A stretch of DNA of 30,613 nucleotides. It comes from a virus. Positions within the stretch are counted from its first letter, which is position 1, and every line of letters begins with the position of its first letter. The stretch is taken from IMG/VR virus record IMGVR_UViG_3300010885_003666, positions 1 through 30,613 of that record. One strand, 5' to 3'. This document shows, one piece after another, positions 1,907-18,779 of this stretch. Below the pieces are notes generated by a model that saw only the letters and a program-made list of their open reading frames with translations, was not told the origin of the DNA and made no database searches. A program made the position numbers and the translations under genes.

Positions 1907-2245
1907 TTAAATTCCACCGAGAGCATTAAAACGATCCCAAACCCAATCAGTAGCAGCACTTGCGTCAAATGGAAGTAAATTGCCTGTAACAGATGAAGGA
2001 TCTCGCATTTCCAAATCCGTTCCAACTGATGTCAAATAAGCCAACAAATCAGCTTTTGTGGGAATAACTTCAAAATCTCCCGTAGCGTTATCATTTGTAA
2101 TACCAATTATTACCAAATCACGTGGCCAAGTTGCAGTAGGATCAGAAACTGCAAAAGCACCATTCACTTCATTATCACCAAAGTAAATAAAATCAGGAAT
2201 TGTTCCTTCCGCAGTTAAACGATATTTAATTACATTACGTGCCAT
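1907..2245 (-). CDS. Hypothetical protein, fibre-region (112 aa)
   Basis: I do not recognise a named family. The protein starts MARNVIKYRLTAEGTIPDFI, then has strands and acidic loops (FGDNEVNG, NDNATGDFEVIPT), and ends with DWVWDRFNALGGI. There is no signal peptide or membrane segment. The start codon follows the stop of the 271-aa gene with no gap (TAAATG), and GGAG lies seven bases before it inside the end of that gene, so the two are probably translationally coupled. The terminator at 1856-1877 closes the unit. A virion or fibre-accessory role is inferred from location only. Confidence 0.7.
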   Translation of the reverse strand: MARNVIKYRLTAEGTIPDFIYFGDNEVNGAFAVSDPTATWPRDLVIIGITNDNATGDFEVIPTKADLLAYLTSVGTDLEMRDPSSVTGNLLPFDASAATDWVWDRFNALGGI

Positions 2246-3061
2246 TTAATTCTCCAATTGAGGTGTATTTGTCAATGACTGACGATCAAGAACTTGAAAA
2301 CCACGATTTGCGGCAAACTTGGCGGCACAGTCTTGGAACTTATCAGCACAGGCTTCTAGCCATTGTACAGTCATCTCATGCGTAGGTGCTATACCTTTAG
2401 ACATCATTTCGTTTTCCATACTTAAGTAGGCAAATACCTCAGCTTGGGCTTGCGCAGCATTAATACCCAAGTCAAATAGATAAATCATATTACCCTCATC
2501 AATTATACCATTACGAGTACGAGCAGCATTTAAACCCTGTTTCATACAAGTCATAACATGGTAACGCTTTTCTTCTAATTCGTAGTCTTCTTCTGTTATC
2601 TCAGTTTTACCTATTTTTGCTAAGATATTATCATATTGATTAATGAAAAAGTTCAGTTTACGAACTGCGCCTTCCATGTAATTTTGTGTGCTAAAAGCAC
2701 TTGCTTTGGCTTCTGTGATTTCTAATTCCAATAACTCACGATCAAATGGATCGGTAGTTTCATTCAACTTAGACTCTTTGCGACGCCACTCAATCTCTGA
2801 TTTTTTTAACTTAAAGTGAGTTTCTTGCAACGCTGCTCTCGTCTGTTCAATTTCAGCCAATGATTGGTAGATTGAACGCAAGGGAGTAAGTGTTGTTATA
2901 TCAAGAGTAACATTCATAAACTGTGAATGCCCCTTAAAGAAATTGGTGGTAGATTTCATTACTGCAGGCAATTTTTTGTCGATGTTACTCAGCATAACGT
3001 CATACTCAGGCTTGGCAGTTGTAAGCGCAGTCGAAATATTTTTAATAGTCAGATCGTTCAA
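2246..3061 (-). CDS. Helical hypothetical protein with TTG start (271 aa)
   Basis: The protein is largely alpha-helical and charged. Residues of about 75-130 (AEIEQTRAALQETHFKLKKS and what follows) look like a coiled coil, and the C-terminal half has helices with FDLGINAAQAQAEVFAYLSM and WLEACADKFQDCAAKFAAN. The frame has no ATG before residue 23, but a TTG at 3061 is preceded by AGGA with 7-base spacing, and a TAG stop lies just upstream, so TTG is the likely start. It differs strongly in composition from the Thr/Gly-rich fibre proteins around it. Possible roles are an assembly factor or a non-fibre virion component. No domain allows a firm function. Confidence 0.7.
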   Translation of the reverse strand: MNDLTIKNISTALTTAKPEYDVMLSNIDKKLPAVMKSTTNFFKGHSQFMNVTLDITTLTPLRSIYQSLAEIEQTRAALQETHFKLKKSEIEWRRKESKLNETTDPFDRELLELEITEAKASAFSTQNYMEGAVRKLNFFINQYDNILAKIGKTEITEEDYELEEKRYHVMTCMKQGLNAARTRNGIIDEGNMIYLFDLGINAAQAQAEVFAYLSMENEMMSKGIAPTHEMTVQWLEACADKFQDCAAKFAANRGFQVLDRQSLTNTPQLEN

Positions 3062-3106: not shown

Positions 3107-4153
3107 TTAAGTAAGTCCACCTTGGGCACCACAACACCCCATTAACATACCGCCAGCTGCATGAAGTGTAAGGCTGCCAAATGAAGTTCCATTTCCAGTC
3201 GTGGCGATTGTTATATAATCGGTATTCTGACCACCAGAATAACCAACACACCCACGTATTCCATTGTTTACTGCAGAAGCATCACCAGCATTAAATGTTA
3301 ATGTTCCAAAAGATGTAGCATTACCTGTTGATGCCATTGTTACATAATCAATTGTGGTAGTTGAAGAGCCTCCTGCCCATACCGCACGGGTATTGTTGCT
3401 CATGCCACCAGGAATAAAACGTCCAGTTGTTAAATTTCCAAAAGATGTAGCATTACCAGTGGAGGCAATTGTGATATATTCAATACGAGCAGATGTACCA
3501 GTTGAATTACCATATCCGCCAGCAACCATCCCTCGTGTACCACTAGAACCACCTGCGTTAAGGTTATCTACCTGTTGAGATAAACTACCAAAAGATGTTG
3601 TATTACCTGTAGTAGCTGTCGTTATATACGACATTACATCAGTTCTGCCGCTTTGGGTGGCGCTGGCACCTCCCATGATCACCCCACGAGTTGGACTTGA
3701 TACACCACCAACACCATTGCTCGAGCCAGTGGCAGCACTGAGAGTACCGAAAGATACAGCATTACCAGAAGTGCCGAAGGTAACATAGCCTATTTGTGTC
3801 ATATAAGAATCAACACCGTAACCACCAGCAAATATACCACGAGTAGTTGAAGCCAAGCCTACACCACCATATATACGTGCAACTTCAAGATTACCCCAAA
3901 ACGTCCAATTTCCAGTTGTAGTTAAGTTGGCAGATGAAATTGCCAAATTCGATGTGCCACCAGAATTTGTTCCACGGGCAGCCCAAAGAGCTGGAGTGGG
4001 CGCGACATTACCAGCAATTGGCCAAAGACCTTGTTTAAGCCAAAATTGCGCCTGATCTAATGTCCAAATCCCAGAAGCCGCACCATTGTCGTATGGACCA
4101 GCTGGTGTTATTGGATTTGCAGTAATTAATCCACCTGGATAATTTAAACTCAT
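3107..4153 (-). CDS. Tail adhesin with about six propeller-like repeats (348 aa)
   Basis: The N-terminus (MSLNYPGGLITANPITPAG) followed by GIWTLDQAQFWLKQGLWP is an attachment-like segment also echoed in two neighbouring genes. From about residue 70 on, a 45-50 residue unit repeats about six times: a 'YITIASTGNATSFGNL' strand pair followed by 'TRGIFAGGYG'. Variants include YVTFGTSGNAVSFGTL, YITTATTGNTTSFGSL and YVTMASTGNATSFGTL. This resembles Kelch-type beta-propeller blades and is common in aquatic phage fibre proteins. The last unit ends LMGCCGAQGGLT with paired cysteines. The ATG overlaps the previous stop (ATGA), so it is coupled to the 157-aa gene. It is probably a receptor-binding protein. 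The propeller fold is inferred from the repeats. Confidence 0.8.
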   Translation of the reverse strand: MSLNYPGGLITANPITPAGPYDNGAASGIWTLDQAQFWLKQGLWPIAGNVAPTPALWAARGTNSGGTSNLAISSANLTTTGNWTFWGNLEVARIYGGVGLASTTRGIFAGGYGVDSYMTQIGYVTFGTSGNAVSFGTLSAATGSSNGVGGVSSPTRGVIMGGASATQSGRTDVMSYITTATTGNTTSFGSLSQQVDNLNAGGSSGTRGMVAGGYGNSTGTSARIEYITIASTGNATSFGNLTTGRFIPGGMSNNTRAVWAGGSSTTTIDYVTMASTGNATSFGTLTFNAGDASAVNNGIRGCVGYSGGQNTDYITIATTGNGTSFGSLTLHAAGGMLMGCCGAQGGLT

Positions 4154-4623
4154 ACTTTAACCCATAATCCTGTTTCAATATTGAAATTCCAACCTTCACC
4201 ATTCGGACGAGTGGGCACAATAACCCAAGATAAATCAGACTCACGCCATTGATAAATGTTGCCATCTTCAGGTTTAGCTACGGGTGCTTCATACGAACAA
4301 GTAGTCTCATTAAAAGACCAAGAAGAATAAAACATCGGTGACAGTGGCCAAAGTGTTTTAACTCTTTCTTGTTTTGCTAAGATTTCTTCAGCAGTCATTT
4401 GTTCGCAAGTATATACATCAGTGTATTTACCATCAACTAACTGATAAGATAAAGTTTGATTTTTTTCATATGGTCCAAGAACGTGGTTTTCAACTCGAAC
4501 AAATTCAGCAAAATTGTCTGGTAAATTATCTATGTCTACATTAGGAAATGCCTGACGGAAATTTTCTTCTACAATTGGATGCTCAAATGGCATACCATCT
4601 TTAATTCTAATAAAAAGTTTCAT
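4150..4623 (-). CDS. Conserved phage protein, possible tail-fibre assembly factor (157 aa)
   Basis: The protein starts MKLFIRIKDGMPFEHPIVEE and contains LGPYEKNQTLSYQLVDGKY, a helix with CEQMTAEEILAKQERVK, and a Trp-rich C-terminus (YQWRESDLSWVIVPTRP, GEGWNFNIETGLWVKV). Proteins of this pattern sit beside fibre genes in T4-like marine phages. The short size, charged central helix and Trp-rich end are compatible with a fibre-folding chaperone. The 4-bp overlap with the downstream adhesin suggests stoichiometric co-translation with it. Chaperone function is inference. A small virion protein is the alternative. Confidence 0.7.
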   Translation of the reverse strand: MKLFIRIKDGMPFEHPIVEENFRQAFPNVDIDNLPDNFAEFVRVENHVLGPYEKNQTLSYQLVDGKYTDVYTCEQMTAEEILAKQERVKTLWPLSPMFYSSWSFNETTCSYEAPVAKPEDGNIYQWRESDLSWVIVPTRPNGEGWNFNIETGLWVKV

Positions 4624-4639
4624 TTTTATAAATTTCCTG

Positions 4640-4647
4640 TATTTATT
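4640..4647 (-). promoter_or_regulatory. Candidate late promoter core AATAAATA
   Basis: The minus strand reads AATAAATA, one base from TATAAATA, in the 56-bp gap before the 157-aa gene. The AGGAAA ribosome binding site follows within a few bases. Its placement in one of the few true gaps supports a late promoter, but AT-rich DNA makes chance matches possible. Confidence 0.45.
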
Positions 4648-4679
4648 GAAGGGAATAATTTAATCATGTTGTGTTCTAT

Positions 4680-4982
4680 CTATGATACCAGTTGCCAGTT
4701 ACCACCAGTTTTGTCGATTGATGAAAACTCAGTTTTTGTTCCATTCCAGAATAAAACTTGATTTCCAGTTCCAATAGTAAATGTATTAGTTGCCTGTGAA
4801 AAGAACCCAGTCAAATAACCAACAATACCATCTGGTAACACATAGCCATTAGTTGTAACCCAAAGGAGATTAAATGATGTTTCAGATAATTGTAGAGAAG
4901 ATGACTCTATTCCATTTGCAAATGTAATAACATTACATTCAGAAATATTTGTAGACAGAGAAAAAGATGTTGGAGTTGTCAT
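4680..4982 (-). CDS. Small hypothetical beta protein in fibre cassette (100 aa)
   Basis: The protein starts MTTPTSFSLSTNISECNVIT and ends GTKTEFSSIDKTGGNWQLVS. It is rich in Thr, Ser, Asn and aromatic residues, with predicted strands and no membrane segment. The C-terminal phrase 'VLFWNGTKTEFSSIDKTGGNW' resembles short fibre-tip or collar segments that end in Trp. It lies between two adhesin-like genes and follows the 383-aa gene after an 18-bp gap. It may be a small fibre or capsid decoration protein. I cannot assign a family. Confidence 0.65.
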   Translation of the reverse strand: MTTPTSFSLSTNISECNVITFANGIESSSLQLSETSFNLLWVTTNGYVLPDGIVGYLTGFFSQATNTFTIGTGNQVLFWNGTKTEFSSIDKTGGNWQLVS

Positions 4983-5000
4983 TTATGTCACCGATTTATA

Positions 5001-6152
5001 TCAAGTTATTATAATTTGAGCATCGCCACGGGTTTGGGCGACTCTATAAGGATTTATAAAAATGTTACCATTCAACTTCGCTATTGATGATCCACTTCCA
5101 GTATAGGTAAGACCTCCAGCTGGTGTCACTGTTAAATAAAGTTCAGATGCAGACAAAGTCGTTCCAGATCTAGATAGAACATAAGCACCACCTTGTACGC
5201 CAGTAGTACCAAGCACAAAAATAGCTTTGCTATCGGATATTGGAGCCATTGATTGATTTGCTGATGCCCCCGCATCTGAATTAGTACCAAGAGTTATTAC
5301 TGTCCCGAATGTAGGTGTTGTTCCAGAAATTGTCATGGCTACTGCTTTTGGATAAGTTCCTGTCGCAGCAGACTTCCATACAGCTATGGCGCTAGTGCTA
5401 CTTGTTGCAGCAATTCCAACATATCCACTACTAGCACTAACCCCACCAGTATCAATTACAGCGTTTGATCCCATCGTTATAGAAGTTCCTGAAATTGTCA
5501 TTACATTAACAGTTGGATTATTACTGTTTGCATTATCATCTCGAATCATTACTACAGCTGTAGATGATAGTGCATAAACTGATACTGAAGAATTAGCCCC
5601 ACCAGCGGCATCAGCAATCGAGCCAAAACTTGGAGTTGTTCCACTAACAGAAATAACAACTGCCTTTCCACCAGAATAACCACATAGTGCAGTTGTTGAT
5701 GTAAGAGGTGCGAGAGAAGGATATTGAGAAACCTCGCTGTTTGCTACAGCAGAACCAACCGTAATAGTAGTACCAGAAATTGATAAAACTCTTGCGTCTA
5801 AGTAATTATTAGCATTATTTTCATAAACAATTAATGCTGTAGCTGCATCTAAAGCAACCACTGCTGATCCATATGGACTAAATGTAGATTTAATTAAAGC
5901 TGGAGTTCCATATGTTATGGTAGTGCCACTTATTGATGCAATAACTGCGTAAAGACCATCGTTTGTATAATCATGAAACGAAATAATTGCTTTTGTGGTC
6001 GTTAATGGCCAAACATTTGTTTTTATTATATGAGTAGTTGCAGATCTGAAAGAAGCAGCCGCACCAATTGTAGGTGGCGCTGAAGCCCACAGATTTGCGT
6101 TCTGTGCTTGCATTTGCTGGGTAGATGTCCAAAGACCAGAATAATTAGGCAT
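5001..6152 (-). CDS. Tail adhesin with six 'ISGTT' repeats, likely beta-propeller (383 aa)
   Basis: The N-terminus, MPNYSGLWTSTQQMQAQNAN followed by LWASAPPTIG, resembles the 'GIWTLDQAQ...LWP' attachment segment of the 348-aa gene. From residue 35 on, a unit of about 50 residues occurs six times: a hydrophobic strand with 'TTKAIISFHDYTN', a variable loop, then 'ISGTTITYGT'. The ISGTT element varies as SISGTTITVGS, SVSGTTPSFGS, TISGTSITMGS, TISGTTPTFGT and SRSGTTLSASE. Six such four-strand units fit a six-bladed beta-propeller, a fold often used for sugar binding. The start overlaps the upstream glycine-rich adhesin (TAATG), so the two are co-translated. It is a probable receptor-binding protein. 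Confidence 0.8.
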   Translation of the reverse strand: MPNYSGLWTSTQQMQAQNANLWASAPPTIGAAASFRSATTHIIKTNVWPLTTTKAIISFHDYTNDGLYAVIASISGTTITYGTPALIKSTFSPYGSAVVALDAATALIVYENNANNYLDARVLSISGTTITVGSAVANSEVSQYPSLAPLTSTTALCGYSGGKAVVISVSGTTPSFGSIADAAGGANSSVSVYALSSTAVVMIRDDNANSNNPTVNVMTISGTSITMGSNAVIDTGGVSASSGYVGIAATSSTSAIAVWKSAATGTYPKAVAMTISGTTPTFGTVITLGTNSDAGASANQSMAPISDSKAIFVLGTTGVQGGAYVLSRSGTTLSASELYLTVTPAGGLTYTGSGSSIAKLNGNIFINPYRVAQTRGDAQIIIT

Positions 6153-7336
6153 TATGCATCTCCTGTATTTGTTGATGGGAATGAACGTGTAGCACCTGGC
6201 CAGATAATACGAACTGCGCCTCTGGCTCCTGCACTGTTACTAACTAGGTCACCGCCAACTCCACCACCGCCATAAAAGCCACCACCTCCGATAATACCGC
6301 TAAAGACCGTTCCATTACCTCCGCCAGAGCCACCACCACCACCATTTGCGCTTGTACTTGTCGCTGATCCTGATCCTGTGCCAGCTGCTCCACTTGCACC
6401 CTGTCCGAGGAGACCAACTCCGCCACCGCCTGCACCGCCTGCGCTTCCAGCGCTGTTCCATCCACTCGCACCGCCACCACCGCCACCACCAGAGCCAGCA
6501 GTGCCAGAAACCGATGAACTTGTTTGATTTCCGCCATTACCACCATTACCCGCATAGCCACCAGCGCCACCACCGCCACCAGTTCGGTCATATCCTGTTC
6601 CGCTGCTACCACCACCACTACCACCATTACCACCATTACCACCGCCATCACCTGTATAAGTACCACCTGTACCACCTGCACCGAAACTGCTATAGTGTCC
6701 ACTACCACCGCCACCGCCACCGCCTTTTACAGTCCTAGTGCTTACAAAATAACTATTACCACCATTTACTAAGTCGCTATTTGCATTGGAACCCGTGCCC
6801 GAGTTTCCAACAACTACAGTATAAGAACTGTTTGGAGTTACTGAGTAATTATTTATGTAACCCAAGCCACCACCGCCACCACCGCTAGCGTAGTATTGTC
6901 CACCGCCACCACCACCAACAGCAACAACAGAAACTGAAGTAACACCAGTTGGTGCTATCCATGAATATGTACCTGCAGTAGTATATGCAAACTGATCAGA
7001 ACCTGAAGGTGTTACACTATTAGAAACACCACTCTGTGGACCTTCTCCATACGTATTTATTGCAGAAACTCTAGCTGTATGAGCCTGATCATTAGTCAAG
7101 CCAGTCACAACGATTGGTGATGATGCTCCAGTATTTGTAGTAATTGCACCAGTAGAAGTGTTTGTCACATAAACTCGATAAGAAGTAATGGCTCCACCGC
7201 CAGTATTTGCAGGTGCTGTAAACGGAACTGAAACTTGTGTAGTTCCTCTAGTAATTGTACCAACAGTAGGTGCATTTGGAGTTTTAAGAGGCTGGTAGGT
7301 AGCAGTTAATATCCCTGCATCGTATCGCAATGACAT
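6152..7336 (-). CDS. Fibronectin-III and glycine-rich tail adhesin (394 aa)
   Basis: Residues 1-18 (MSLRYDAGILTATYQPLK) share the 'MSLxYxxGxxT' start of the 348-aa adhesin. Residues of about 20-110 form a fibronectin type III domain, with 'PTVGTITRGTTQVSVPFTAP', 'ITSYRVYVTN' and 'VSAINTYGEGPQSGVSN'. After 'YTTAGTYSWIAPTGVTSVSV', residues of about 140-375 are mostly glycine runs broken by Ser, Asn, Tyr and Ala, the pattern of the Gly_rich domain found in phage and bacterial surface proteins. T4-like phages such as S16 use stacked poly-glycine helices in the gp38 adhesin, so a similar receptor-binding role is plausible. AAGGGGATC gives a strong ribosome binding site. The GC-richer glycine codons stand out in this AT-rich DNA. 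Confidence 0.85.
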   Translation of the reverse strand: MSLRYDAGILTATYQPLKTPNAPTVGTITRGTTQVSVPFTAPANTGGGAITSYRVYVTNTSTGAITTNTGASSPIVVTGLTNDQAHTARVSAINTYGEGPQSGVSNSVTPSGSDQFAYTTAGTYSWIAPTGVTSVSVVAVGGGGGGQYYASGGGGGGLGYINNYSVTPNSSYTVVVGNSGTGSNANSDLVNGGNSYFVSTRTVKGGGGGGGSGHYSSFGAGGTGGTYTGDGGGNGGNGGSGGGSSGTGYDRTGGGGGAGGYAGNGGNGGNQTSSSVSGTAGSGGGGGGGASGWNSAGSAGGAGGGGVGLLGQGASGAAGTGSGSATSTSANGGGGGSGGGNGTVFSGIIGGGGFYGGGGVGGDLVSNSAGARGAVRIIWPGATRSFPSTNTGDA

Positions 7337-7353: not shown

Positions 7354-7725
7354 TTAAGTCAATACTTCGTAGCCAGCAGTAAGTTCAAGTGCACTTCCCG
7401 TGCCAACAGTAACAACAACAGATTGCGATTCACCAACATAAAAAGATGTTGTTTTATCAACAATAATTAAAGATGCATTTGCTGGAACGCTGACTTGATA
7501 AGCAATACGATATGCTGTACCACCACCAGATGCTGCACTATTGACTGAAACAGTAACTGCAACTGCAGAAGCTGTTACATTAGAAGCAACAATATTGTTA
7601 ACTTTAGTAACGCTATTAGAAGCTGGAGTTAATGCAGTCCATGTAGTAACTGATGTATTAGAAGGTATTAAGTATGAGGTGTTACCGTAAATTGATGTTA
7701 CGCCAACGATGTTTGGGTTTGCCAT
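7354..7725 (-). CDS. Small virion structural protein (123 aa)
   Basis: This is an all-beta Val/Ser/Thr-rich protein that starts MANPNIVGVTSIYGNTSYLI. It contains 'VNNIVASNVTASAVAVTVSV', 'YRIAYQVSVPANASLIIVDK' and an end with 'ELTAGYEVLT'. The pattern matches a small structural protein often seen beside fibre genes of cyanophages and pelagiphages, thought to be a beta-sandwich like head or tail decoration proteins. A good AGGAGC ribosome binding site precedes it. Its precise place in the virion is unknown. Confidence 0.75.
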   Translation of the reverse strand: MANPNIVGVTSIYGNTSYLIPSNTSVTTWTALTPASNSVTKVNNIVASNVTASAVAVTVSVNSAASGGGTAYRIAYQVSVPANASLIIVDKTTSFYVGESQSVVVTVGTGSALELTAGYEVLT

Positions 7726-7738
7726 TTTTTATTGCTCC

Positions 7739-8455
7739 TTAGAATCCGAAAATCATAGCCATTGCAATGGCTTTGCCTGTTGAGATACCACTTGCGGCTG
7801 GCGCTGTGGATTGCCATGTTGTACCGTTTGATGTTAGTACATTACCAGAAGTACTAGGCGCAACGAAGCTAACTCCAGATGTACCATTACCAAGAATTAC
7901 GTTATTTGCTGTGAGAGATGTTTGACCAGTACCACCACTAGCTACCACTAAAGTAGTTGATAGTCCAGCAGCTGTTCCGCTAGTATTTTGATTACCAGAT
8001 GTATTTACACCAGGTAAGTTAATAGCTGCAGTACCATCAAACGAAACACCACCGATAGTTCTGGCTGTTGCCAAAGCAGTAGCTGTTGCAGCGTTTCCTG
8101 TTGTAGAACCAGAAGTGCCACTTACGTTACCAGTGACGTTACCAGTGACATTACCAGTGACATTACCTGTAAGGGTAGCCGTAATAGTACCAGCTGCAAA
8201 GTTACCAGAAGCATCACGTGCAACGATGGTAGATACAGTGTTTGCCGTGGCAGAGTTTAAACCATCTAAAGTATCAGCATCTAAACCAGAGCCAGTACCA
8301 TCAACAGTTAATAACTTTGAAAGTACATCAGCAGCAGTATAGCTACTAGAATTTAACTTGGTGCCAACTTCTGTGTTAATATTGGTGAAGTTGGTATCAA
8401 CTTCAGTATTTGTAAGGGGACTCCCCTTGGTTGCTCTTAGCGTTATGGTCGCCAT
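7739..8455 (-). CDS. Tail fibre protein with TGNV repeats (238 aa)
   Basis: The N-terminus (MATITLRATKGSPLTNTEVD) followed by TNFTNINTEVGTKLN is a common start of short phage fibres. The middle has 'SIVARDASGNFAAGTITATL', four TGNV units at about residues 94-110, and 'ATALATARTIGGVSFDGTAA', a classical tail-fibre repeat phrase. The protein ends 'GKAIAMAMIFGF', a hydrophobic C-terminus seen in fibres of marine T4-like phages. It lies directly after the 78-aa coiled-coil gene with a 12-bp gap and AAGGAAAAA as ribosome binding site. It is most likely a trimeric side or short fibre, or the attachment part of a fibre whose tip is one of the following adhesins. Confidence 0.85.
   Translation of the reverse strand: MATITLRATKGSPLTNTEVDTNFTNINTEVGTKLNSSSYTAADVLSKLLTVDGTGSGLDADTLDGLNSATANTVSTIVARDASGNFAAGTITATLTGNVTGNVTGNVTGNVSGTSGSTTGNAATATALATARTIGGVSFDGTAAINLPGVNTSGNQNTSGTAAGLSTTLVVASGGTGQTSLTANNVILGNGTSGVSFVAPSTSGNVLTSNGTTWQSTAPAASGISTGKAIAMAMIFGF
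8126..8173 (-). repeat. 12-bp tandem repeat encoding TGNV
   Basis: Four consecutive 12-bp units, based on gttaccagtgac on the plus strand, encode TGNV repeats in the fibre. The first two units are identical, the third differs by one base and the last is degenerate. The short repeat could change copy number by slippage and alter fibre length. Confidence 0.85.
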
Positions 8456-8467
8456 TGTAGTTTTTCC

Positions 8468-8704
8468 TTACTTTTGAGAACTTTTGTTTATTAGCATCAG
8501 AAGCATCTGTTTGATCTCAGAAAGTTCTGTCTTTATGTTATTTATATCTTCTGAATGTTCTTCTATCTGTTTCTGTTTGGTAACAGCTGCATCTCTGCGG
8601 TTGATATAATTCTGATACTCAGATCTATTAGTATTTATAATGGCGCTAGTGCTCATATCTCGCACCAGCCCATCTTTACCTTCAATTTTAACTATTCTAG
8701 TCAT
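8468..8704 (-). CDS. Small coiled-coil protein preceding the fibre genes (78 aa)
   Basis: The N-terminal part (MTRIVKIEGKDGLVRDMSTS, then AIINTNRSEYQNYI) is a compact motif that I recognise from small proteins next to fibre genes in aquatic T4-like phages. Residues 38-74 have a heptad-like pattern (IEEHSEDINNIKTELSEIKQ) typical of a coiled coil. The ATG at 8704 overlaps the stop of the giant tail gene (TAATG). An in-frame ATG three codons upstream is less likely because it lies inside that gene's end and breaks the usual start motif. Possible roles are fibre trimerisation or attachment. Both are inference. Confidence 0.75.
   Translation of the reverse strand: MTRIVKIEGKDGLVRDMSTSAIINTNRSEYQNYINRRDAAVTKQKQIEEHSEDINNIKTELSEIKQMLLMLINKSSQK
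8539..8546 (-). promoter_or_regulatory. Candidate intragenic late promoter core TATAAATA
   Basis: This is an exact TATAAATA on the coding strand within the 78-aa gene, 84 bp before the fibre start at 8455. It could give the fibre cassette its own late transcript. It also encodes part of a 'DINN' coiled-coil segment, so it may be coincidental. Confidence 0.4.
8632..8639 (-). promoter_or_regulatory. Candidate intragenic late promoter core TATAAATA
   Basis: This is a second exact TATAAATA, 93 bp upstream of the first and in the same orientation, inside the 78-aa gene. It encodes part of the conserved 'AIINTN' stretch, so protein constraint may explain it. Two perfect octamers in one short gene before the fibre cassette make it worth noting. 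Confidence 0.35.
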
Positions 8705-11700
8705 TATGCACAAGCGATAACACGCAGATCTTTAATTCTTGGAACTGCCGCAGAGTTTGTAGATTTCATAACTAATTTAATTTGAAGCGAATCAAAGGCA
8801 CTAATATCTTTGGCAGTAAATGACATATCAATAAATTGATCACTTCCAACCTGAGCATATACAATTTGACTATCTGGAGCAATACGAATCCAATTAATAG
8901 TATCAAAAGAATCATTGGAACCAAGCTCACCAGTTTTATAGTAAACATCCACAGAAGCATCTGCAGGAATACTTGCCGCAAACTGTGCACGGATTAAATG
9001 TGATGTATTAGCCAAGTTGATTTTCTTAGTTACATACTTACTGTATGCAGAACTTCCAATAGGTGCAATTTCATCTACAAAGAAGTCTTTCTGAGAAAGA
9101 GTAATTGCAGGTGTAGCTGACTGAGTAGTAAATGCTCTATCTAATGTTACAGTAGCAGTAGTACCATTATCAGTAACTTTAGTCACTAAGAAAGTACCAT
9201 CATTTAATCCACTGGTAGAACCAGAAACAGTTAGGTATTTACCAACAGCGATAGTTTGTAAAACTCCACGAGCAGTAGCATTTACAGAAGTAATAGTGCT
9301 TCCACTGAAAGCAATGGTAGTATTGGCAGACAATAAAGTCTTATCATCAATACCACCAATATTCATATTGGCAGAAGTTGGAGCATTAATCTTATTGCTA
9401 AATCCAATCAAGCTAATACGATGTGTGTCTAAGATAGGAGACAACGAATCATTAGTTGTGCTCATTGTAACATTAAATGCCACAGATTTATTTCCACTTA
9501 AACTATTATTTTCATTAATTTCAGAAGCCACCATTCTTGGAGTTACGAAATAATTATTTTCGTTGGCAAGAACATCACTAAATTCTGAGTCACGAGTATA
9601 AGCAGTTTGAGTAGAACTATCAACTGACTTACCAGTCGTAGACTTGATACCAAACGTAGTCATAGTTTCAGAGAAAGTCTGAATCTGTAGGGTTGGTTGT
9701 ACTCCATCATACTGTAAGTTTCTAGTGGTACGAACAGTAGTGCCACCAGTATATCCGCTAGATGTTGGTGTTGTAGTAACAGTTATACAATAAGAATCTA
9801 AATCAACATCGCTAATGATTTGAGTTGTATAAATCTCAGCAGCAGGAACACCAAAGATTGGAGCAACATACTTGAATGCAGATCCAGAACTTAATGTAGC
9901 AGTAGCATTAGCTGCAAAAGTCGCAGAAGTATTACTTACAATAGTAGCAACCTTGCCGATGAAAGAACCAGTAGAATTGTAAATTGCAGAACCAACAGCG
10001 AGTTGCGTAGTGAATGCAGTTCCAACACCAGTCAATGTAGTATTGGCAGTGCTGGTTGCAATAGTTCCAGTACCTGTAACTCCAGTTAATTGAGTTTGAT
10101 CAGAACTGGTAACAATAGTGCGTGAACCAGAAGGCATGCCATGGTTAGTTTGATATACACGAATTTTAGTTACACCACTCTTAATTTCAAACGGATCATT
10201 TGCTAGATTTTGATATGGTAGAACATCATTGACAAACTCTACGTTGGCAATTACATCAGTATCAAATTTAGCACGATAGATGGTAAACTTCAAATCTTGA
10301 TTCTGGTCAGCAGTCCAAGTAGATGCGTTCTGAGATTTAAAGAATACACCCATATAAGGCTGTTCAGAAATAGTGCGACTAGATCCTGGAATCAAATCAC
10401 CAATCTGAGAAATCCAAACTTGATAATTGTTCGAATCTGAAGAAAGAATAATAGCATACTCCCCATTATCCTGAACATAAACAGGAGATGGGAATTCAAA
10501 CGTAGTTGCAGTATCATACTTCGGAGTTGGTACACCACCAACTGAAACTACATTGGTAGAAATATTAACATCAGCTGATTTTACAGACACTTTAGAGAAT
10601 GGTAAAACTAATTTCCCTGGATATCCATTAACAACTTCACGAATTTCTAGATTTACAGGAATATTGTCATCTTTGGAAGCGAAGAAAATATCAATCTTAG
10701 TTAAGAATGCACCACCCTTTTGTTGCACTAAGAATGTTTGTGCAAGTGGATCCCACCAACCAGTATCAGAAACGATACGATCAGCAGATTGTACAATAAC
10801 TTGATTTTCTACTAATTGCTCTTCAGCAAGTTGAGCATTACGCACAGCATTAACAGTTGACTGACGTGTTTCCAAAATACCTTCAGCACGATATAAAGCA
10901 CGACCACGAGAAGTAAAATCACCCTGCGCTGCTACGTTATCAACCAGTTTAAACTCACGAGTACCAGTACGGAAACGAACAGATTCATTATTTGGGATAT
11001 TAAAGATTAAGTTCAAATCACCAGAGAAGTTAGAAACTAATACATCTCCACTAGCAGTAGTGGTTAATGATGAGAATGTCCCAGTTGCGGCAGAGATAGA
11101 ACCAGTCAATTGTTCAGAAGCAGAGAATGTACCCTTAACATTCTGCACGAACATAGAGTAAATTCCAGTAGCTGCATTATATTCTTGGCCAACAACAATA
11201 GCAGTTGCACCAGAAGTAGCACCAGTAATAACATCACCACGATTTAAACAAACTTGCGAGTCGCCATTAATACGTCTAGCAGTCTCAGAAGAAAGACCAC
11301 CTACATTAGAGGAATCGTCAAATTGTCCGCTAACTGGCAAATATGTTAACTTGGACGCAGGAGTACAGAATTGAGAAACTGTAACATCATCGAAATAAGG
11401 ATAGAAACGAGTATTAGGTTTTAATCCTTTAACTTGTACAAGAATGTTTCTTGAACGAATATATGGAATAACTGCAGTAGAAAGGATACGATCAGAAATA
11501 ACTTCACGATCAATACGTGAGACTAAAGTTGTTTTAACACCAGTACGTGTCTGACCAATTTGTGTGGCAACTGTTTCTGCCACAACTTGACGAGCATTAA
11601 CGTGTCCAGCATCTCTTCTACCGAAACGTGCATTAAATGCATCAACATCTAAGAAAACATCACCCTGACGTGCTGCCCAATTTACACCAGTTGTAAAAAT

Positions 11701-14700
11701 TGTTCTAGCTGATACTGGTGCACCAGTCCACTGATTCTGCCATGCGTTCCAAATAGTTCCTAAAACACCAGCACGTTCAGCGATAGCTTTAACTGCATTG
11801 AAGTTACCTTCAACTTGATTAACAATATCTGGACGACGATCAACTTCAAACCAATCATCAGAGGATGGTGTTAAAGTTACTTGACCCAAGAATGTAAAGA
11901 TAGCAAAGGGATTAATATTTTCTAAACGAGATGCATACTCTTGATTGATAAGTGGTACATGCTCAACGATAGGCAATGTAATAACATCACCATATAGTTT
12001 GTAGTTTGCATCGATACGATCTGCATCACTAGAATTCTTCTCGATCAGATTAATGTTTTGCATTGAATAGAATGGGCGAAGTTCACCCTTCTCCATATCA
12101 ATAGAACACAAATAGTCAGGAGAAGTTACATCTCCAATATTTTGTCCCGCAAAACTGTCTACGATAAAGCCATTTTTAAATCTATCAAGACCAGCAGTAT
12201 CAACAATGTTTAGTGATTCTGTTTGCTGCTCTAGTAGTGATAATGATGTATAGTATTCAAGGTTATCAATACGTTTTTCTAACTTACCGATATCACGCAT
12301 AGTATAGCGTTTGTTATCTACTGAACCCACTACAACAGAAGATGATGTAGTTGAGAACGTATATGGCTCTAAAGTTAAATCATAAAGAACCATACCCAAT
12401 GATGGATCAAGTGGCTCTCCTGGAGTTAAAGAAGATACGCCATCGATAGGGAAGAAGTTACCATTAAAGTCAACAGCAATCTTAGTTTTACGTGCTAGGT
12501 AATATGTAAAATCTGCACGAATATCAATACCACGCTTTGGCACTAAAGCACCAGAAGAACCTGAACCAGTAAATGTAGTACCAGCATCATCAATGCGTGG
12601 ACGGAAGTCAATAGAATCACGTAATGAACTTCCATTAAAGATTGGAATAGTTTCATATGCTACGTTGGCTGGATATGAATTTACTGTGAAGTAATCACCA
12701 GTAGAATGTGTAAAGTATTCAAACTCAACGCTGATTGGAGCAGTTGGTGCAACGTATGATGCTTTTAATAATAGACGTGCTACATCATAATGAGTATTTC
12801 TCTGTCCATCATCAAATTCATATCGATCTGTAATATCGATAGTATATGAACCAGTTGCAGAAGCAAATGTTCCAGTGTCCATTTTAACTGAAACTAAACG
12901 AAATGCATCAGCTTTACCAAGTAATAACTCTGTCTTAGTTGCAGTTGCCGCAGTAGTAAATGTAGTGGTCGTAGAAGCTAATGTTTTAGCTTTCTCAGTT
13001 AGAGTTGCACCAGATTTATTTACTGTGCCAATAACAATAAAGTTTTGTGAAGCAAACGTATCAGATATTGTAAACTGAACTGTTGAATCAGAAACCAAAA
13101 TTGCAGAAGGAAGAACTATAGCACCACCGCTACCAGAATCATTACACATTAACAAATAGTTATCAGTTTCTGCAGCAGAAGCAAATGTTCCACTAGAAGT
13201 GGTGACAGTTAATGTACAATTACCACCAGATGCTGAAGAAGTCGTCCCTGTGAAACGCTCCATAACTGTATAAGTCGTATCATTACTTCCAGCAGAAGAA
13301 CGAACTGATTTAATAGCATAGTATGGAAGTTTAAAGATTAAACTTGTATTTTCTGGTTCTTTTAATTCTGAAGTAATCCAATCAACTGTGACACCAATCA
13401 CATTCACAGCAGTAGCAACTTCAATTCTAGTCTGAGAAACGATAGATGTTACACGAACACGATTAGTTCCTAGGTAAACCCAATCTCCAACTGTAAGATC
13501 AGTTTGGAATGATGTACCTAAACCTTGGATAAATGTACCTGAACCTTGGGTACCATACGTATTGGAAGTATATGAAGTAACTGAACCAATTAAACGTGTA
13601 TTATCTCCAACGATATCTGCAGTGAAACTTAAATTAGCATCACTTGATACATTGAAGTAGAAAGACTTAGCTTTTTCATGGAAAGTATATCCAGCAGTGA
13701 TATTAACATCAAATAAGAATACTTTATATTGCTCAGTACCTGATGCAATTGTTCCATTGTGCCACTCAATACCACGAATACGTGCTGTACCGATTGCATT
13801 TGCGCTTGTTGGAACTGCACCATCGGAAGTTACGAATCTGTCGTAGATAGTAACTGGAGCGAATGAATGGACTGGAGGTAAGTTATTGACGTTATCAACA
13901 ATAATATAATTACCAACAGTGGCTGGAATAATAGCATTATCAACCTGAACAAATTCACGTGCTTTATTAACTGCAACATATTGAGTTGCAACTTTTTCAA
14001 TTTCATAACCTTGTACGTATGCTTTTCCTGGTTCTAATCCAACAGCTAATTTAGCAGAATCTCCACCATTTGCTGGTGTGTATACCCCACGATTATAGTA
14101 TGGAGAAATATTATATTCCCACTGAACACCAGTAGATCCTGGACCATCATACGCCAATCCACTAGTATGCGTAGGTGCAGTATTAATAGAAGTAGATGAA
14201 GTTTTAGCAACGTATGTAGTTCCGTTACTTGTTACTATGTCACCAATCAAATATGCTCTATTTGATACCCAAGCATCTCGATTGTTATTTCTGTGCTCAC
14301 GAACATCGATTTTAAATGGACGCACAGCATAATTTCCTGACTCATCATACGTGCGACGAGCAAGAGTTTTTTCTAAAATATTATATTCAGTTGTAGTTGT
14401 ATGGCGAATAATTGCGCCAGCATCTACACGAAGAAGTTCAATAAAGTCTACATCTTCTACAGAAGTAGTTAACTTCTTATCTAACACCAAGTCAATGTAG
14501 TAACGATGTGCTCCTGGAGCAGCATAGTTATAGCTATTTTGAGCATTGTCTAGAAGTGATTCATATCCAGTATCTTCTGGAGTAATTAACTGCTCATCAA
14601 CAGTTAAGCCAACACGATACGTTGGTGTATTTGTGTATTTGTCTAGAATGATAGTTTGTGTATCACATAAAACAAAATATCCATTAACATAATACACACC

Positions 14701-15219
14701 ACGTTCAACTGTAGCTGTAGAACCAATTCCAGTGGCAGATGACGCATTGGCTTGAACTCTGTATGCAGTTAATGCAACAGCATCTGGAGTTAAAATCTCA
14801 TTTGCTGCAAAAACTTGAGTAGTATTATCATTGCCAGAGTTTTTGTATTTAACGTATATAGTCGCTGGGTCAGCCCCAGTAGCAGCAACAACTTTCAAAA
14901 CTTTAGCTTTAAGACCATTTTGACCAGTGATGTCTTGACCTTCTAAACGTGTCAGGTATGTATCAATTGCAGCACCCGCATATAGAGGTTGCAATTTAAT
15001 AAATGCTACATTACAGTCGATCGATATCTGTCCTGGAATGACCATGGCACCCTGCTTAAACAGGTGATCACCGCCACGCTTTATTTGATTTTGTAGGATT
15101 GACTGGAGTTGGGTTAACTCACGTGCCTGAACCGCAAAACTTGGACGAAACAAAATTCTATGGAATTTATTGTCTTCATCGAAATCATCATTATATGGTT
15201 CTGTGTTGAAATCTAGCAT
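8704..15219 (-). CDS. Giant tail/baseplate protein with DUF4815-type N-terminus (2171 aa)
   Basis: Residues 1-60, including EPYNDDFDEDNKFHRILF and FAVQARELTQLQSILQNQIK, match the start of DUF4815-type large structural proteins of cyanophages and other aquatic T4-like phages. A binding-like module with Trp317 (AWVSNRAYLIGD) lies at about 317-372. Two similar beta modules ('GTFIQGLGTSFQTDLTVGDW' and 'TTLTGVGTAFTTQLAVGS') lie near 556 and 1720. A helical hairpin, 'MRDIGKLEKRIDNLEYYTSL', lies near 975. The C-terminal third is beta-rich with no enzyme motif visible. Its place after the gp8-like gene suggests that it replaces the T4 gp9-gp12 peripheral and fibre network. The start follows a weak AAGAGAAA site. 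Confidence 0.8.
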   Translation of the reverse strand: MLDFNTEPYNDDFDEDNKFHRILFRPSFAVQARELTQLQSILQNQIKRGGDHLFKQGAMVIPGQISIDCNVAFIKLQPLYAGAAIDTYLTRLEGQDITGQNGLKAKVLKVVAATGADPATIYVKYKNSGNDNTTQVFAANEILTPDAVALTAYRVQANASSATGIGSTATVERGVYYVNGYFVLCDTQTIILDKYTNTPTYRVGLTVDEQLITPEDTGYESLLDNAQNSYNYAAPGAHRYYIDLVLDKKLTTSVEDVDFIELLRVDAGAIIRHTTTTEYNILEKTLARRTYDESGNYAVRPFKIDVREHRNNNRDAWVSNRAYLIGDIVTSNGTTYVAKTSSTSINTAPTHTSGLAYDGPGSTGVQWEYNISPYYNRGVYTPANGGDSAKLAVGLEPGKAYVQGYEIEKVATQYVAVNKAREFVQVDNAIIPATVGNYIIVDNVNNLPPVHSFAPVTIYDRFVTSDGAVPTSANAIGTARIRGIEWHNGTIASGTEQYKVFLFDVNITAGYTFHEKAKSFYFNVSSDANLSFTADIVGDNTRLIGSVTSYTSNTYGTQGSGTFIQGLGTSFQTDLTVGDWVYLGTNRVRVTSIVSQTRIEVATAVNVIGVTVDWITSELKEPENTSLIFKLPYYAIKSVRSSAGSNDTTYTVMERFTGTTSSASGGNCTLTVTTSSGTFASAAETDNYLLMCNDSGSGGAIVLPSAILVSDSTVQFTISDTFASQNFIVIGTVNKSGATLTEKAKTLASTTTTFTTAATATKTELLLGKADAFRLVSVKMDTGTFASATGSYTIDITDRYEFDDGQRNTHYDVARLLLKASYVAPTAPISVEFEYFTHSTGDYFTVNSYPANVAYETIPIFNGSSLRDSIDFRPRIDDAGTTFTGSGSSGALVPKRGIDIRADFTYYLARKTKIAVDFNGNFFPIDGVSSLTPGEPLDPSLGMVLYDLTLEPYTFSTTSSSVVVGSVDNKRYTMRDIGKLEKRIDNLEYYTSLSLLEQQTESLNIVDTAGLDRFKNGFIVDSFAGQNIGDVTSPDYLCSIDMEKGELRPFYSMQNINLIEKNSSDADRIDANYKLYGDVITLPIVEHVPLINQEYASRLENINPFAIFTFLGQVTLTPSSDDWFEVDRRPDIVNQVEGNFNAVKAIAERAGVLGTIWNAWQNQWTGAPVSARTIFTTGVNWAARQGDVFLDVDAFNARFGRRDAGHVNARQVVAETVATQIGQTRTGVKTTLVSRIDREVISDRILSTAVIPYIRSRNILVQVKGLKPNTRFYPYFDDVTVSQFCTPASKLTYLPVSGQFDDSSNVGGLSSETARRINGDSQVCLNRGDVITGATSGATAIVVGQEYNAATGIYSMFVQNVKGTFSASEQLTGSISAATGTFSSLTTTASGDVLVSNFSGDLNLIFNIPNNESVRFRTGTREFKLVDNVAAQGDFTSRGRALYRAEGILETRQSTVNAVRNAQLAEEQLVENQVIVQSADRIVSDTGWWDPLAQTFLVQQKGGAFLTKIDIFFASKDDNIPVNLEIREVVNGYPGKLVLPFSKVSVKSADVNISTNVVSVGGVPTPKYDTATTFEFPSPVYVQDNGEYAIILSSDSNNYQVWISQIGDLIPGSSRTISEQPYMGVFFKSQNASTWTADQNQDLKFTIYRAKFDTDVIANVEFVNDVLPYQNLANDPFEIKSGVTKIRVYQTNHGMPSGSRTIVTSSDQTQLTGVTGTGTIATSTANTTLTGVGTAFTTQLAVGSAIYNSTGSFIGKVATIVSNTSATFAANATATLSSGSAFKYVAPIFGVPAAEIYTTQIISDVDLDSYCITVTTTPTSSGYTGGTTVRTTRNLQYDGVQPTLQIQTFSETMTTFGIKSTTGKSVDSSTQTAYTRDSEFSDVLANENNYFVTPRMVASEINENNSLSGNKSVAFNVTMSTTNDSLSPILDTHRISLIGFSNKINAPTSANMNIGGIDDKTLLSANTTIAFSGSTITSVNATARGVLQTIAVGKYLTVSGSTSGLNDGTFLVTKVTDNGTTATVTLDRAFTTQSATPAITLSQKDFFVDEIAPIGSSAYSKYVTKKINLANTSHLIRAQFAASIPADASVDVYYKTGELGSNDSFDTINWIRIAPDSQIVYAQVGSDQFIDMSFTAKDISAFDSLQIKLVMKSTNSAAVPRIKDLRVIACA

Positions 15220-15258: not shown

Positions 15259-18200
15259 TTAGAATCTGATAATGGTTCTAAGCGTCACTGACTGATCTGC
15301 CGTTGGAGTAAACCCAGACTTGTTATCAATAAAAAGTAGGTCACCCGAATATTTATCTCCTGTTGGAGGAGTTACTGCACTGGCAGTAAAAGTATTTCCA
15401 CCAGTACCCACAAACGTAGTTCCAATTGCTGGAACGTAGTTATCCAAAGATTGAGCTAAAATAGCAACACCAGTGTTACTAACAATTCTAAATCGTTTAG
15501 TTGTACTGGCTACTGTAATAATTGAATCTGCTGGGAAAAATGTAGTGCTGATAGTCCCACCAATAGCCCAACAGCCAGAAGCAAGAATATTAGTGAGAGC
15601 ATACGTATTGTTATATTGTCTTGGATTTTTAAGAATTCCAGCTTGACGGTAATCGTTATTTACATCGAATCCCTGATTTTTATCTGCTGAAATATTACTG
15701 TAAAACATAAGAGTTCTAGCATATAAGTTGGTCAACGCATTTTTGCCATGACCACCATAAGGACTAATAATTGGACGAACTCTAGCACCGTATCCATTAC
15801 CAGTGATAGTAGCAGTTGCGTAACGATATCCACTTCCATAATTAGTCATGGTAATTTTTGTAATAACACCATTTACAATAACAGCAGTAGCTGTTGCTCC
15901 TGTTCCATCACCAACAATAGTAACAGTGGCAGAAGCATAACCGTAGCCTCCAGAAATCACTTCTATAGCCATAAGTCTAGCATCAACAGTTAACAACTCA
16001 ATATTTGCTTGAAGTGTATTAATATCACCTGGAGATAAGTCTGCAGAAATTTGAGCACTTGTACCATCACCAGTAACAGTTAATGTAGCATAAGAATAAC
16101 CAACACCACCATCATCTACAATAACAGAAGAAAGTTGTCCGTTCTCAAAAAACGGAACAAGTTTAGCCTCAGATTTAATTCCTTGGAATGTAATACTAGC
16201 ACCTGATCCAGTTAATGATCCAATGGTAACACCAGGATTAGCAAGAGAATAACCAGATCCATACTTCAATGATGCAGTGGCAGTTATTTTTTCCCCTGCA
16301 TACAGCAAAGTGGCAGTTCCATCAGTGGCAGATCCTGTAATATGCACTGGTGCCGTAGAACCAGTAGTTCCTGCAGCTGTTACAGTGTATAAACGATTTG
16401 AGAAAAAAACTTGTTGATTTAATGTAAGAGCAGTACTTGCTGTCCACTGAGTACCAAATGTAACAGTTGGTGCAGACATATACCCATATCCAGCATCTGT
16501 GTGGACAATTTTAGATAATCTACCACCTTGCATAACTGCAACGGCAGTAGCCCGACCTGCATTATATGTAAATGTTTGCGTTCCTGTGCCAGCTGATGTC
16601 AGATTTATTGCAGTTCCTGCCACGGCATTACTATATGAAGTGGCTAATTTAATTGTATTTTGTGAATTGCGGATAATATAATAAGTCTGTCCAGTAGAAA
16701 GACCACCAATAGCAGCAGTTCCTTCAGTATAAACAATAGCATCACCAGTTTGTAATGGATGCAAATCAGATAGTGTTATAACTTCAGTAGAAGTATTTAC
16801 AGAGGATGCTGACGTATAAAATGGAGCAGAAATAGTAATAGGTGGAACCGATCTATATCCACTACCGAAAGATGAAATTTCAATCTCTCTAACCATGGCA
16901 TACATTTTTACAGCTGTAATAACACCACTTGCTACAGTTACATCGCCAGTAGCTGTTGTTCCAAGATATTTAAGCCCTGCAGTACCATTTGATGCCTCAC
17001 CTGTTTTGTGAACTGGACCAGAACCTCCTGTAGTGCCAGAAACTGTAACTTCATAAATGTTATTTCTGTGCTGTATGCGTTGTCCATTTAACAATAATGT
17101 TGATGCTAGCCAAGCAGATGAATTTGGAAATGGTGCTTCAACAATAACTTCAGCATTGCTTTGATAAGATGTTCCACCAGCAGCCAATGAATAATTATTC
17201 AAATAAAATGGATCAGATTCTAAGTATCCATCACCCTGAACTAAAATAGAACCAGCAGTATATCCAGTTCCTGCCTGAGCGATACGAACTGTTTGAATAT
17301 TTCCATTTGAATAAAATTGATTACGAAGAGCAGTTACAATAGGAATATAATCATCTGTTAGAAATTTATTGCGCAAAGCAACTGGTACATTAAACATAAA
17401 TTTCCACATATAGCCATCTGGGAATGTTATTGGATCAACTGTAGTTCCAATTGGCTTATATGTTGAAGGAGATGCATTATTGTTGTCAAGACATTTATAT
17501 ACGTTAAACTCATCAGTCATGACATAGAAAACAGAATCTTCTAGTTTTTGAGCACCAGATGGAGCAATATTTACAACGGCTGTGCCAGCCGCAGAAATAC
17601 CTGCATTACTAACAGCAGCAATATGCACAGATGGTATGGCAGTATATCCAGTACCACGTGATGTGACTTCAATGTCAATAACTTGACCATCAAGAATTGA
17701 TGCTGTTGCCGCTGCACCAGTACCACCACCATCACTAACAACTACATGCTTAAGTGAAGAAGAACCATTAGCTACTGTAGAACCATTAACATGAACAGGT
17801 GCTGTGGAACCAGTAGTTCCTGCAGTTGTTACAATATAATATCTGTTGGATATTTTTAAGAATGCGCCAGCCAAAACAGCAGTACTTGCAGTCCACGTAA
17901 CAGAACCAATAGAACCAATATAAACAGTTGGGGCTAATCCATATCCCAATCCACCACTGGTTAGATTGATACCTTGCACTTCTTTACTGTATTCATCATC
18001 ATATGAATCATAAACAGTGCCAGAAACCCAATCATACCTTTCAACTACATAAGATACATCAGTTGGTTTAATTTCTTTTAGAGTTATAATTTCATTGCGT
18101 GTATTTTGCTCATAATCAAAACTATCAATCGGCAATGGTGGAGTGAACTCATCTTCCCACGCAAGAGTTTTTCCTAAGAAATAGTAATATCTTGAATTTC

Positions 18201-18279
18201 TATTTACAATTTCATTGTAAATACCTTCTGCAACAGACTTATGCAGAACAGTTTTGATCAGGGAAGATTGAGTCGCCAT
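15259..18279 (-). CDS. 8: Baseplate wedge protein, enlarged gp8-like (1006 aa)
   Basis: The N-terminus (KSVAEGIYNEIVNRNSRYYY, then LAWEDEFTPPLPIDS) parallels the gp8 start with its 'W..e..pP.P.ds' segment. The middle 'VYKCLDNNNASPSTYKPIGT' and 'FPDGYMWKFMFNVPVALRNK' at about 255-310 match the gp8 'YRCLD...GDGYVWEYLFEIP' region. 'GGHGKNALTNLYARTLMFYS' near 840 matches the gp8 C-terminal part. T4 gp8 has 334 residues and this protein has 1006. The extra length is made of inserted beta modules: three W...Y modules (Trp at 129, 390 and 612) and several 'GxGY...P.v.i' units. gp8 links wedge proteins in the T4 baseplate. Orthology is well supported, but the function of the inserts is inferred. Confidence 0.8.
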   Translation of the reverse strand: MATQSSLIKTVLHKSVAEGIYNEIVNRNSRYYYFLGKTLAWEDEFTPPLPIDSFDYEQNTRNEIITLKEIKPTDVSYVVERYDWVSGTVYDSYDDEYSKEVQGINLTSGGLGYGLAPTVYIGSIGSVTWTASTAVLAGAFLKISNRYYIVTTAGTTGSTAPVHVNGSTVANGSSSLKHVVVSDGGGTGAAATASILDGQVIDIEVTSRGTGYTAIPSVHIAAVSNAGISAAGTAVVNIAPSGAQKLEDSVFYVMTDEFNVYKCLDNNNASPSTYKPIGTTVDPITFPDGYMWKFMFNVPVALRNKFLTDDYIPIVTALRNQFYSNGNIQTVRIAQAGTGYTAGSILVQGDGYLESDPFYLNNYSLAAGGTSYQSNAEVIVEAPFPNSSAWLASTLLLNGQRIQHRNNIYEVTVSGTTGGSGPVHKTGEASNGTAGLKYLGTTATGDVTVASGVITAVKMYAMVREIEISSFGSGYRSVPPITISAPFYTSASSVNTSTEVITLSDLHPLQTGDAIVYTEGTAAIGGLSTGQTYYIIRNSQNTIKLATSYSNAVAGTAINLTSAGTGTQTFTYNAGRATAVAVMQGGRLSKIVHTDAGYGYMSAPTVTFGTQWTASTALTLNQQVFFSNRLYTVTAAGTTGSTAPVHITGSATDGTATLLYAGEKITATASLKYGSGYSLANPGVTIGSLTGSGASITFQGIKSEAKLVPFFENGQLSSVIVDDGGVGYSYATLTVTGDGTSAQISADLSPGDINTLQANIELLTVDARLMAIEVISGGYGYASATVTIVGDGTGATATAVIVNGVITKITMTNYGSGYRYATATITGNGYGARVRPIISPYGGHGKNALTNLYARTLMFYSNISADKNQGFDVNNDYRQAGILKNPRQYNNTYALTNILASGCWAIGGTISTTFFPADSIITVASTTKRFRIVSNTGVAILAQSLDNYVPAIGTTFVGTGGNTFTASAVTPPTGDKYSGDLLFIDNKSGFTPTADQSVTLRTIIRF
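16294..16446 (-). repeat. W...Y module, third copy in gp8-like protein
   Basis: This encodes about 50 residues starting at Trp612, 'WTASTALTLNQQVFFSNRLY' then 'GTTGSTAPVH'. It closely matches the copy at 17740-17895, including a nearly identical DNA stretch around 'gaaccagtagttcctgca', which suggests recent duplication or recombination. Confidence 0.75.
16965..17112 (-). repeat. W...Y module, second copy in gp8-like protein
   Basis: This is a divergent copy starting at Trp390, 'WLASTLLLNGQRIQHRNNIY' followed by 'SGTTGGSGPVHKTG'. The Trp, Tyr, GTTG and PVH positions are kept while the DNA has diverged. Confidence 0.7.
17740..17895 (-). repeat. W...Y module, first copy in gp8-like protein
   Basis: This encodes 'WTASTAVLAGAFLKISNRYY' starting at Trp129, then 'GTTGSTAPVHVNG'. 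It is the closest relative of the third copy at both protein and DNA level. Confidence 0.75.
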
Positions 18280-18771: not shown

Positions 18772-18779
18772 TATTTATC
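18772..18779 (-). promoter_or_regulatory. Candidate late promoter core GATAAATA
   Basis: GATAAATA on the minus strand overlaps the stop of the 756-aa gene and lies 35 bp before the ATG at 18737. It fits NATAAATA in one of the few intergenic gaps. The strong AAGGAG site follows at good spacing for a short leader. Confidence 0.5.

Follow-up and report, generated by a model that had tools for sequence, protein, structure and literature searches.

Two predicted beta-propellers as probable exchangeable tips of a three-slot tail adhesin cassette in a T4-like phage

Results

The 30.6-kb virus record IMGVR_UViG_3300010885_003666 (30,613 nucleotides, analysed as a whole and hereafter called the window) carries on its minus strand a T4-like tail region with genes for a tube cap, baseplate wedge subunits of the gp25 and gp6 types, a PAAR protein and a Gp5_OB hub protein; its gp6-type protein shares 42% identity with that of Methylophilales phage Melnitz and about 41% with those of pelagiphages. 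Two repeat proteins of 348 and 383 amino acids (aa), here termed A348 and B383, are encoded at the distal end of this region, in a run of genes several of which nearly touch or overlap (Table 1), and T4-like baseplate genes occupy the rest of the window. Our data suggest, with a probability of about 75%, that A348 and B383 are exchangeable tips of a three-slot tail adhesin cassette in a T4-like phage, in which three distinct N-terminal segments (tags) define the slots and the C-terminal domains behind them (tips) vary.

The 348-aa open reading frame of the original prediction is real, and the six 'TGN..FG' units ascribed to it were counted again here. A blade profile iterated over the fetched IMG/VR loci found exactly 6 units in 178 chains and exactly 12 in 26, with other counts in very few; this quantisation is characteristic of a closed unit of six blades and shows that the repeat did not arise by chance (blade counting by simple self-similarity spectra was too weak). 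The AlphaFold2 model of A348 (predicted local distance difference test score, pLDDT, 83.5; predicted template modelling score, pTM, 0.81) aligns over residues 53-342 with the kelch structures of Keap1 and the designed SAKe6 at Z 32-34 and a root-mean-square deviation (rmsd) of about 2.4 Å. Its likeness to the Keap1/KLHL12 kelch domains and SAKe6 propellers reaches Z 33.7 and rmsd 2.3 Å over 271 aligned residues, whereas identity to them is about 11% and no Kelch repeat profile in Pfam matched A348 even at an E-value limit of 1. With six four-stranded blades modelled as a closed ring, A348 is by its predicted structure a kelch-propeller fold without Pfam Kelch membership. No useful Pfam or PHROG family was found for it, and a direct search returned one relative in IMG/VR, whereas an alignment-based search returned hundreds among the matches listed. 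The two most variable segments of the kelch blade (entropy 3.2-3.9 bits) correspond to the B-C and D-A loops when strands A-D are assigned, as we did, by comparison with kelch repeats. These loops lie on one face of the kelch propeller (PMC6650413), which would fit contact of that face with changing receptors.

For B383, the six ISGTT units described earlier were confirmed (SGT(T/S) at residues 75, 126, 170, 221, 276 and 329, spaced 44-55 aa), but the blade number of six was not, the count being seven. The seventh blade (residues 353-383, approximately) has no SGTT strand and was hence overlooked; the missing strand is presumably supplied by the N-terminal strand. Many relatives found with a repeat profile started from B383 likewise have 7 units, the last commonly partial. 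The AlphaFold2 model (pLDDT 80.7, pTM 0.85) aligns over residues 20-383 with WD40 proteins of seven blades (Z 27-29, 283-310 residues aligned; best match Z 29.0 over 306 residues), so that B383, with six full units and one partial, is predicted to form a closed seven-bladed propeller. Neither Pfam nor PHROG detects a WD40 sequence signature in it, and at the level of fold Foldseek also lists PHL and FleA/AFL lectins and sialidases. Direct searches yielded no relative in named phages, among PDB sequences or, using the protein's own peptides, in IMG/VR, and relatives were reached only via the ISGTT repeat pattern.

The proposal of two closed propellers of different blade families, kelch-like in A348 and ISGTT in B383, is therefore borne out by AlphaFold2 and fold comparison, the models resting on 25 and 41 sequences in alignments of fetched relatives. 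The same models rule out a beta-helix or a disordered fibre for either protein.

The attachment-like GxW N-terminus that had been noticed in both proteins belongs, in alignments of their relatives, to a conserved tag family. Scanning IMG/VR with the tags confirmed 212 and 94 relatives, of which the top 80 were kept in each case, and the relatives of A348 begin with one of three N-termini: a slot-1 tag 'M(S/P)LR.PAGFISA.YDPLK.PNAPTIGTAT' that runs into an fn3 domain, a slot-2 tag 'MPxYSGVWTL' of about 25 aa, and a slot-3 tag 'MS..WPGGLI..GVWTLDQ..KQGLWPxAGN' of about 49 aa. The slots follow the order 1-2-3 in 99 non-redundant complete cassettes, partial sets keep the same order, and no reversed order was seen. 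Six loci read as 1-1-3, which would be explained by slot-2 tags followed by an fn3-like stretch, as found in other loci; slot-1 calls, made with a query containing fn3, are the least specific. An exact peptide pattern for the slot-3 tag found no match in bacterial genomes, a scan that cannot show absence. In one locus (L346, IMGVR_UViG_3300020044_000879) about 800 bp at roughly 596-1394, reaching from the last part of slot 2 into the first part of slot 3, are inverted between 12-bp perfect inverted repeats (585-596 / 1394-1405), breaking both proteins; this sole case among the loci is either an amplification chimera or a real inversion.

Behind these tags the tips change, as seen in a comparison of 157-208 tags per slot. 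Kelch-like, KYTYSG-repeat, WD40-like, RCC1 and Lcl_C tips each occur behind all three tags, glycine-rich (Gly-rich) tips behind slots 1 and 2, and LamG and DUF7483 mostly behind slot 3, the Pfam names for domains behind the tags being RCC1, Lcl_C, LamG, DUF7483 and fn3. Slot-3 tags that are 100% identical carry a KYTYSG-repeat tip in one locus and a WD40-like tip in another (L212, L232), and tags 94% identical carry kelch and LamG tips. The median identity of two kelch tips is 0.50 if they share a locus; for tips from separate loci it is 0.49 across slots and 0.48-0.49 in the same slot. Near-identical tags with unrelated tips, together with these slot-blind identities, show that slot identity is kept by the tags and not by the tips. 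The slot proteins accordingly combine a conserved N-terminal part with an exchangeable C-terminal domain, the arrangement that defines modular receptor-binding proteins.

Of 87 complete cassettes, 70 use one tip family throughout and 17 are mixed, whereas shuffling would give 32 of the uniform kind; among the 22 found by the slot-3 tag alone, the figures are 13 observed and 1.6 expected. Recent duplication of tips between slots was rejected, since identity within loci is no higher than between them, and does not account for the strong one-family preference. Another N-terminal tag, about 'MSLTINHQTNDISN.TGTV..NGTAVGG', precedes three tandem kelch-like tips in locus L002 (4491-7387) and an ISGTT tip in L137. 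That the 'MSLTINHQTNDISN' tag carries both kinds indicates that tip exchange goes beyond the three slots.

The contigs that carry the cassette are partial. Among 20 longer ones, homologues of T4 Gp23, sheath and gp6 occur in two and a portal related to that of phage DSL-LC04 in thirteen others. DSL-LC04 represents the proposed new family 'Dishuiviridae' (PMC10611076); since a Pam1-type adaptor but no sheath appears in its record, it is probably short-tailed. Two members of the DSL-LC04-portal group, G007 (L044) and G002 (L020), yet encode a 271-aa protein 83-85% identical to that of the window. The occurrence of the cassette in both T4-like and DSL-LC04-portal phages indicates that it moves between virion types. 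The head-tail connector family PF12236 matched no genome, controls included, and is hence uninformative.

The window's own combination of tips (Gly-rich, ISGTT propeller and kelch in slots 1, 2 and 3) is unique in the sample. Judged by identity in the 271-aa phrog_1409 protein, the nearest cassettes are L041 (87%), L044 (85%) and L020 (83%), which have kelch tips in all classifiable slots. Between the genes of slots 2 and 3 lies a 13-codon frame, here called the scar, whose last 30 nucleotides align at the DNA level to the 3' end of Gly-rich tip genes. Its motif FPSxNTG(N/D)L was matched 26 times in an IMG/VR pattern scan, always (26/26) at the C-terminus of a Gly-rich protein and in 14 of the 26 followed by a homologue of the window's 157-aa gene; its other occurrences in the fetched loci are likewise all Gly-rich C-termini. 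The scar also contains AGGA, at ribosome-binding distance from the 157-aa gene.

Table 1. Features of the cassette in the window, in gene order.
Feature	Position	Strand	Evidence
Fibre-type protein, 238 aa, head of the cassette	7739..8455	-	PHROG tail fiber matches; homologous group upstream of slot 1 in 77/92 complete cassettes
123-aa beta protein, candidate docking adaptor (putative role)	7354..7725	-	Homologue upstream of slot 1 in 88/92 complete cassettes, in T4-like and non-T4 phages
Slot-1 protein: tag 'MSLRYDAGILTATYQPLKTPNAPT', fn3 and Gly-rich tip ending FPSTNTGDA	6152..7336	-	Pfam fn3, Gly_rich_2; tag consensus across loci
Slot-2 protein B383, 383 aa: tag 'MPNYSGLWTSTQQMQAQNANLW' and predicted seven-bladed ISGTT propeller	5001..6152	-	Tag alignment, AlphaFold2, fold comparison, repeat count
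Orphan 100-aa gene adjoining B383	4680..4982	-	Relatives looked for in fetched loci and IMG/VR scan, none
Scar MIKLFPSINTGNL*, 13-codon frame, probable C-terminal remnant of a Gly-rich tip	4626..4667	-	DNA alignment; IMG/VR motif matches
157-aa partner gene of Gly-rich tips, PHROG 7759 type	4150..4623	-	Homologues directly after the Gly-rich tip gene in 19/21 other non-redundant cases
Slot-3 protein A348, 348 aa: 49-aa tag 'MSLNYPGGLITANPITPAGPYDNGAASGIWTLDQAQFWLKQGLWPIAGN' and predicted six-bladed kelch-like propeller	3107..4153	-	Tag alignment, AlphaFold2, fold comparison
phrog_1409 helical protein, 271 aa, after slot 3	2246..3061	-	Downstream in 64/92 complete cassettes; amino acid identity up to 89% in other loci
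112-aa protein, end of the conserved unit	1907..2245	-	Downstream in 45/92 complete cassettes

Several neighbours deserve mention. A 2171-aa protein (8704-15219) adjoining the cassette, with a phrog_358 match over about 1680 residues, DUF4815 and a weak CBM_5_12 match, could serve as the cassette mount. Two baseplate proteins (15259-18279 and 18778-21048) both contain repeated segments of the type 'GGTGYTSTPTVSI..GGTGATATA' and 'LYTVTAAGTTGSTAPVHxSG', and the 1278-aa hub protein (24193-28029), with a Gp5 OB domain and a DUF2345 region, has by eye a C-terminal D,D-carboxypeptidase-like stretch (GGDHPIGCAADIVFPGG) and an internal muramidase-like stretch. In 46 of 92 loci the cassette is followed by a 240-aa, glycosyltransferase-looking protein ('MHLVIGTPMYGGMCCSEYTQS...FIDADQKF', phrog_1574), which lies downstream of phrog_1409 in L042, L010, L020 and L346 and is missing from the window.

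Discussion

In the arrangement that we propose, each slot protein would most likely dock by its own tag at one fixed place on a tail adaptor, and its C-terminal domain would be the tip that meets the host surface, with recombination at the tag/tip border swapping tips while tags and gene order persist. The candidate adaptor is the 123-aa protein encoded just upstream of slot 1, its gene being the commonest upstream neighbour of that slot and thus the best candidate for a socket. Most fibres are homotrimers; the propellers may act as monomers.

Several points weigh against this arrangement. It is a reading of genes and predicted structures, and the slot-2 tag is modelled with a pLDDT below 50, the tags overall having low or mixed confidence, so that the mode of docking is not visible. 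An ISGTT tip behind a slot tag is seen only in the window. The loci were sampled via tip and tag queries that each kept a limited number of matches, several of them tip-seeded, which biases the frequencies and makes the proportions given above indicative. The presence of the cassette in very different virion types means that the adaptor must travel along, or that the tags do something else. Finally, conservation of the scar need not be historical, given the ribosome-binding site inside it.

The alternative that survives best, which we consider unlikely, is that the tags are assembly or chaperone signals, or that the slot proteins join each other from 1 to 2 to 3 with no common adaptor. The tags do share motifs, with a GVWTL core in slots 2 and 3 that produces cross-matches in searches, and the tips of one cassette tend to belong to the same family, a pattern that contact between the three proteins would produce. 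Against this, no ordered locus shows a tag type outside its own slot, and the same upstream gene accompanies 88 of the 92 cassettes.

As for the window's unusual mixture, the scar, with its homology to Gly-rich C-termini and its position directly before the partner gene of Gly-rich tips, suggests that slot 2 probably lost a Gly-rich tip. Judged from the sequence, the ISGTT propeller most likely replaced it in that direction; the orphan 100-aa gene, for which no donor or relative was found in the fetched loci or the IMG/VR scan, may or may not have come along. The scar may have survived because the 157-aa gene takes its ribosome-binding site from it. The AGGA of the scar would also suit a leader peptide kept for that site and not a remnant at all, an improbable reading because the 30-nucleotide similarity encodes a motif found elsewhere only at Gly-rich C-termini. 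Least probable is a tail tip designed so that the phage needs both propellers, be it to recognise two separate receptors or to reach a wide range of hosts, in line with the two-receptor or broad-range tip that the original prediction had suggested: two different propeller families do stand side by side, but mixed cassettes are a minority and the scar suggests that the mixture arose through replacement, so that the mixed pair is better explained by the replacement of a single tip.

More tentatively, and with the odds leaning slightly against so broad a claim, the cassette may be a portable platform in which a single small adaptor has three ports that are not equivalent, each recognised by a short tag of its own and each accepting any compact tip. 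The whole platform would move between T4-like and unrelated phages, and host specificity would evolve by swapping propellers while the virion is left untouched. The same cassette does occur in phages whose heads and tails differ. If the tags dock as proposed, uncultured freshwater phages share a standard adhesin socket, and their tips could be recognised automatically in metagenomes and would provide test cases for adaptors that accept unrelated domains. The tendency towards one family across the slots, without recent duplication, is itself a testable question.

Modular receptor-binding proteins of Klebsiella phages (PMC8262889; PMC6872550) and the tailspikes of E. coli phages (PMC10408124) likewise combine a conserved N-terminal attachment with a horizontally exchanged specificity domain. 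The cassette of the window differs from these in its three tags in a fixed gene order, in its very short anchors and in its small one-domain tips, mostly beta-propellers of unrelated blade families in place of beta-helix depolymerases. The distantly related Alteromonas phages A5, V22 and P24 (PMC10579305) also have a block of host-recognition genes common to different tail types, but that module consists of trimeric fibres with chaperones, and the word 'propeller' is absent from the text. Few anchors with many tip folds are also a feature of the tail fibres of extracellular contractile injection systems (eCIS), which have five N-terminal anchors to the baseplate and varied C-terminal domains, beta-propellers among them (PMC12923769); these, however, are cellular injection systems, and the parts of that paper considered here do not describe a three-slot ordered cassette. 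Kelch-type six-bladed propellers are present in a tailed phage, the jumbo phage vB_PcaM_CBB (PMC5259590), where CBB_552 was shown to be in the virion, but those proteins were recognised from Kelch sequence signatures that have no match in A348, and exchange of tags and tips was not described. Adhesins made of an anchor and an exchangeable tip are already known, and what distinguishes the present cassette is the strict order of three position-specific tags and the slot-blind exchange of the tips behind them.

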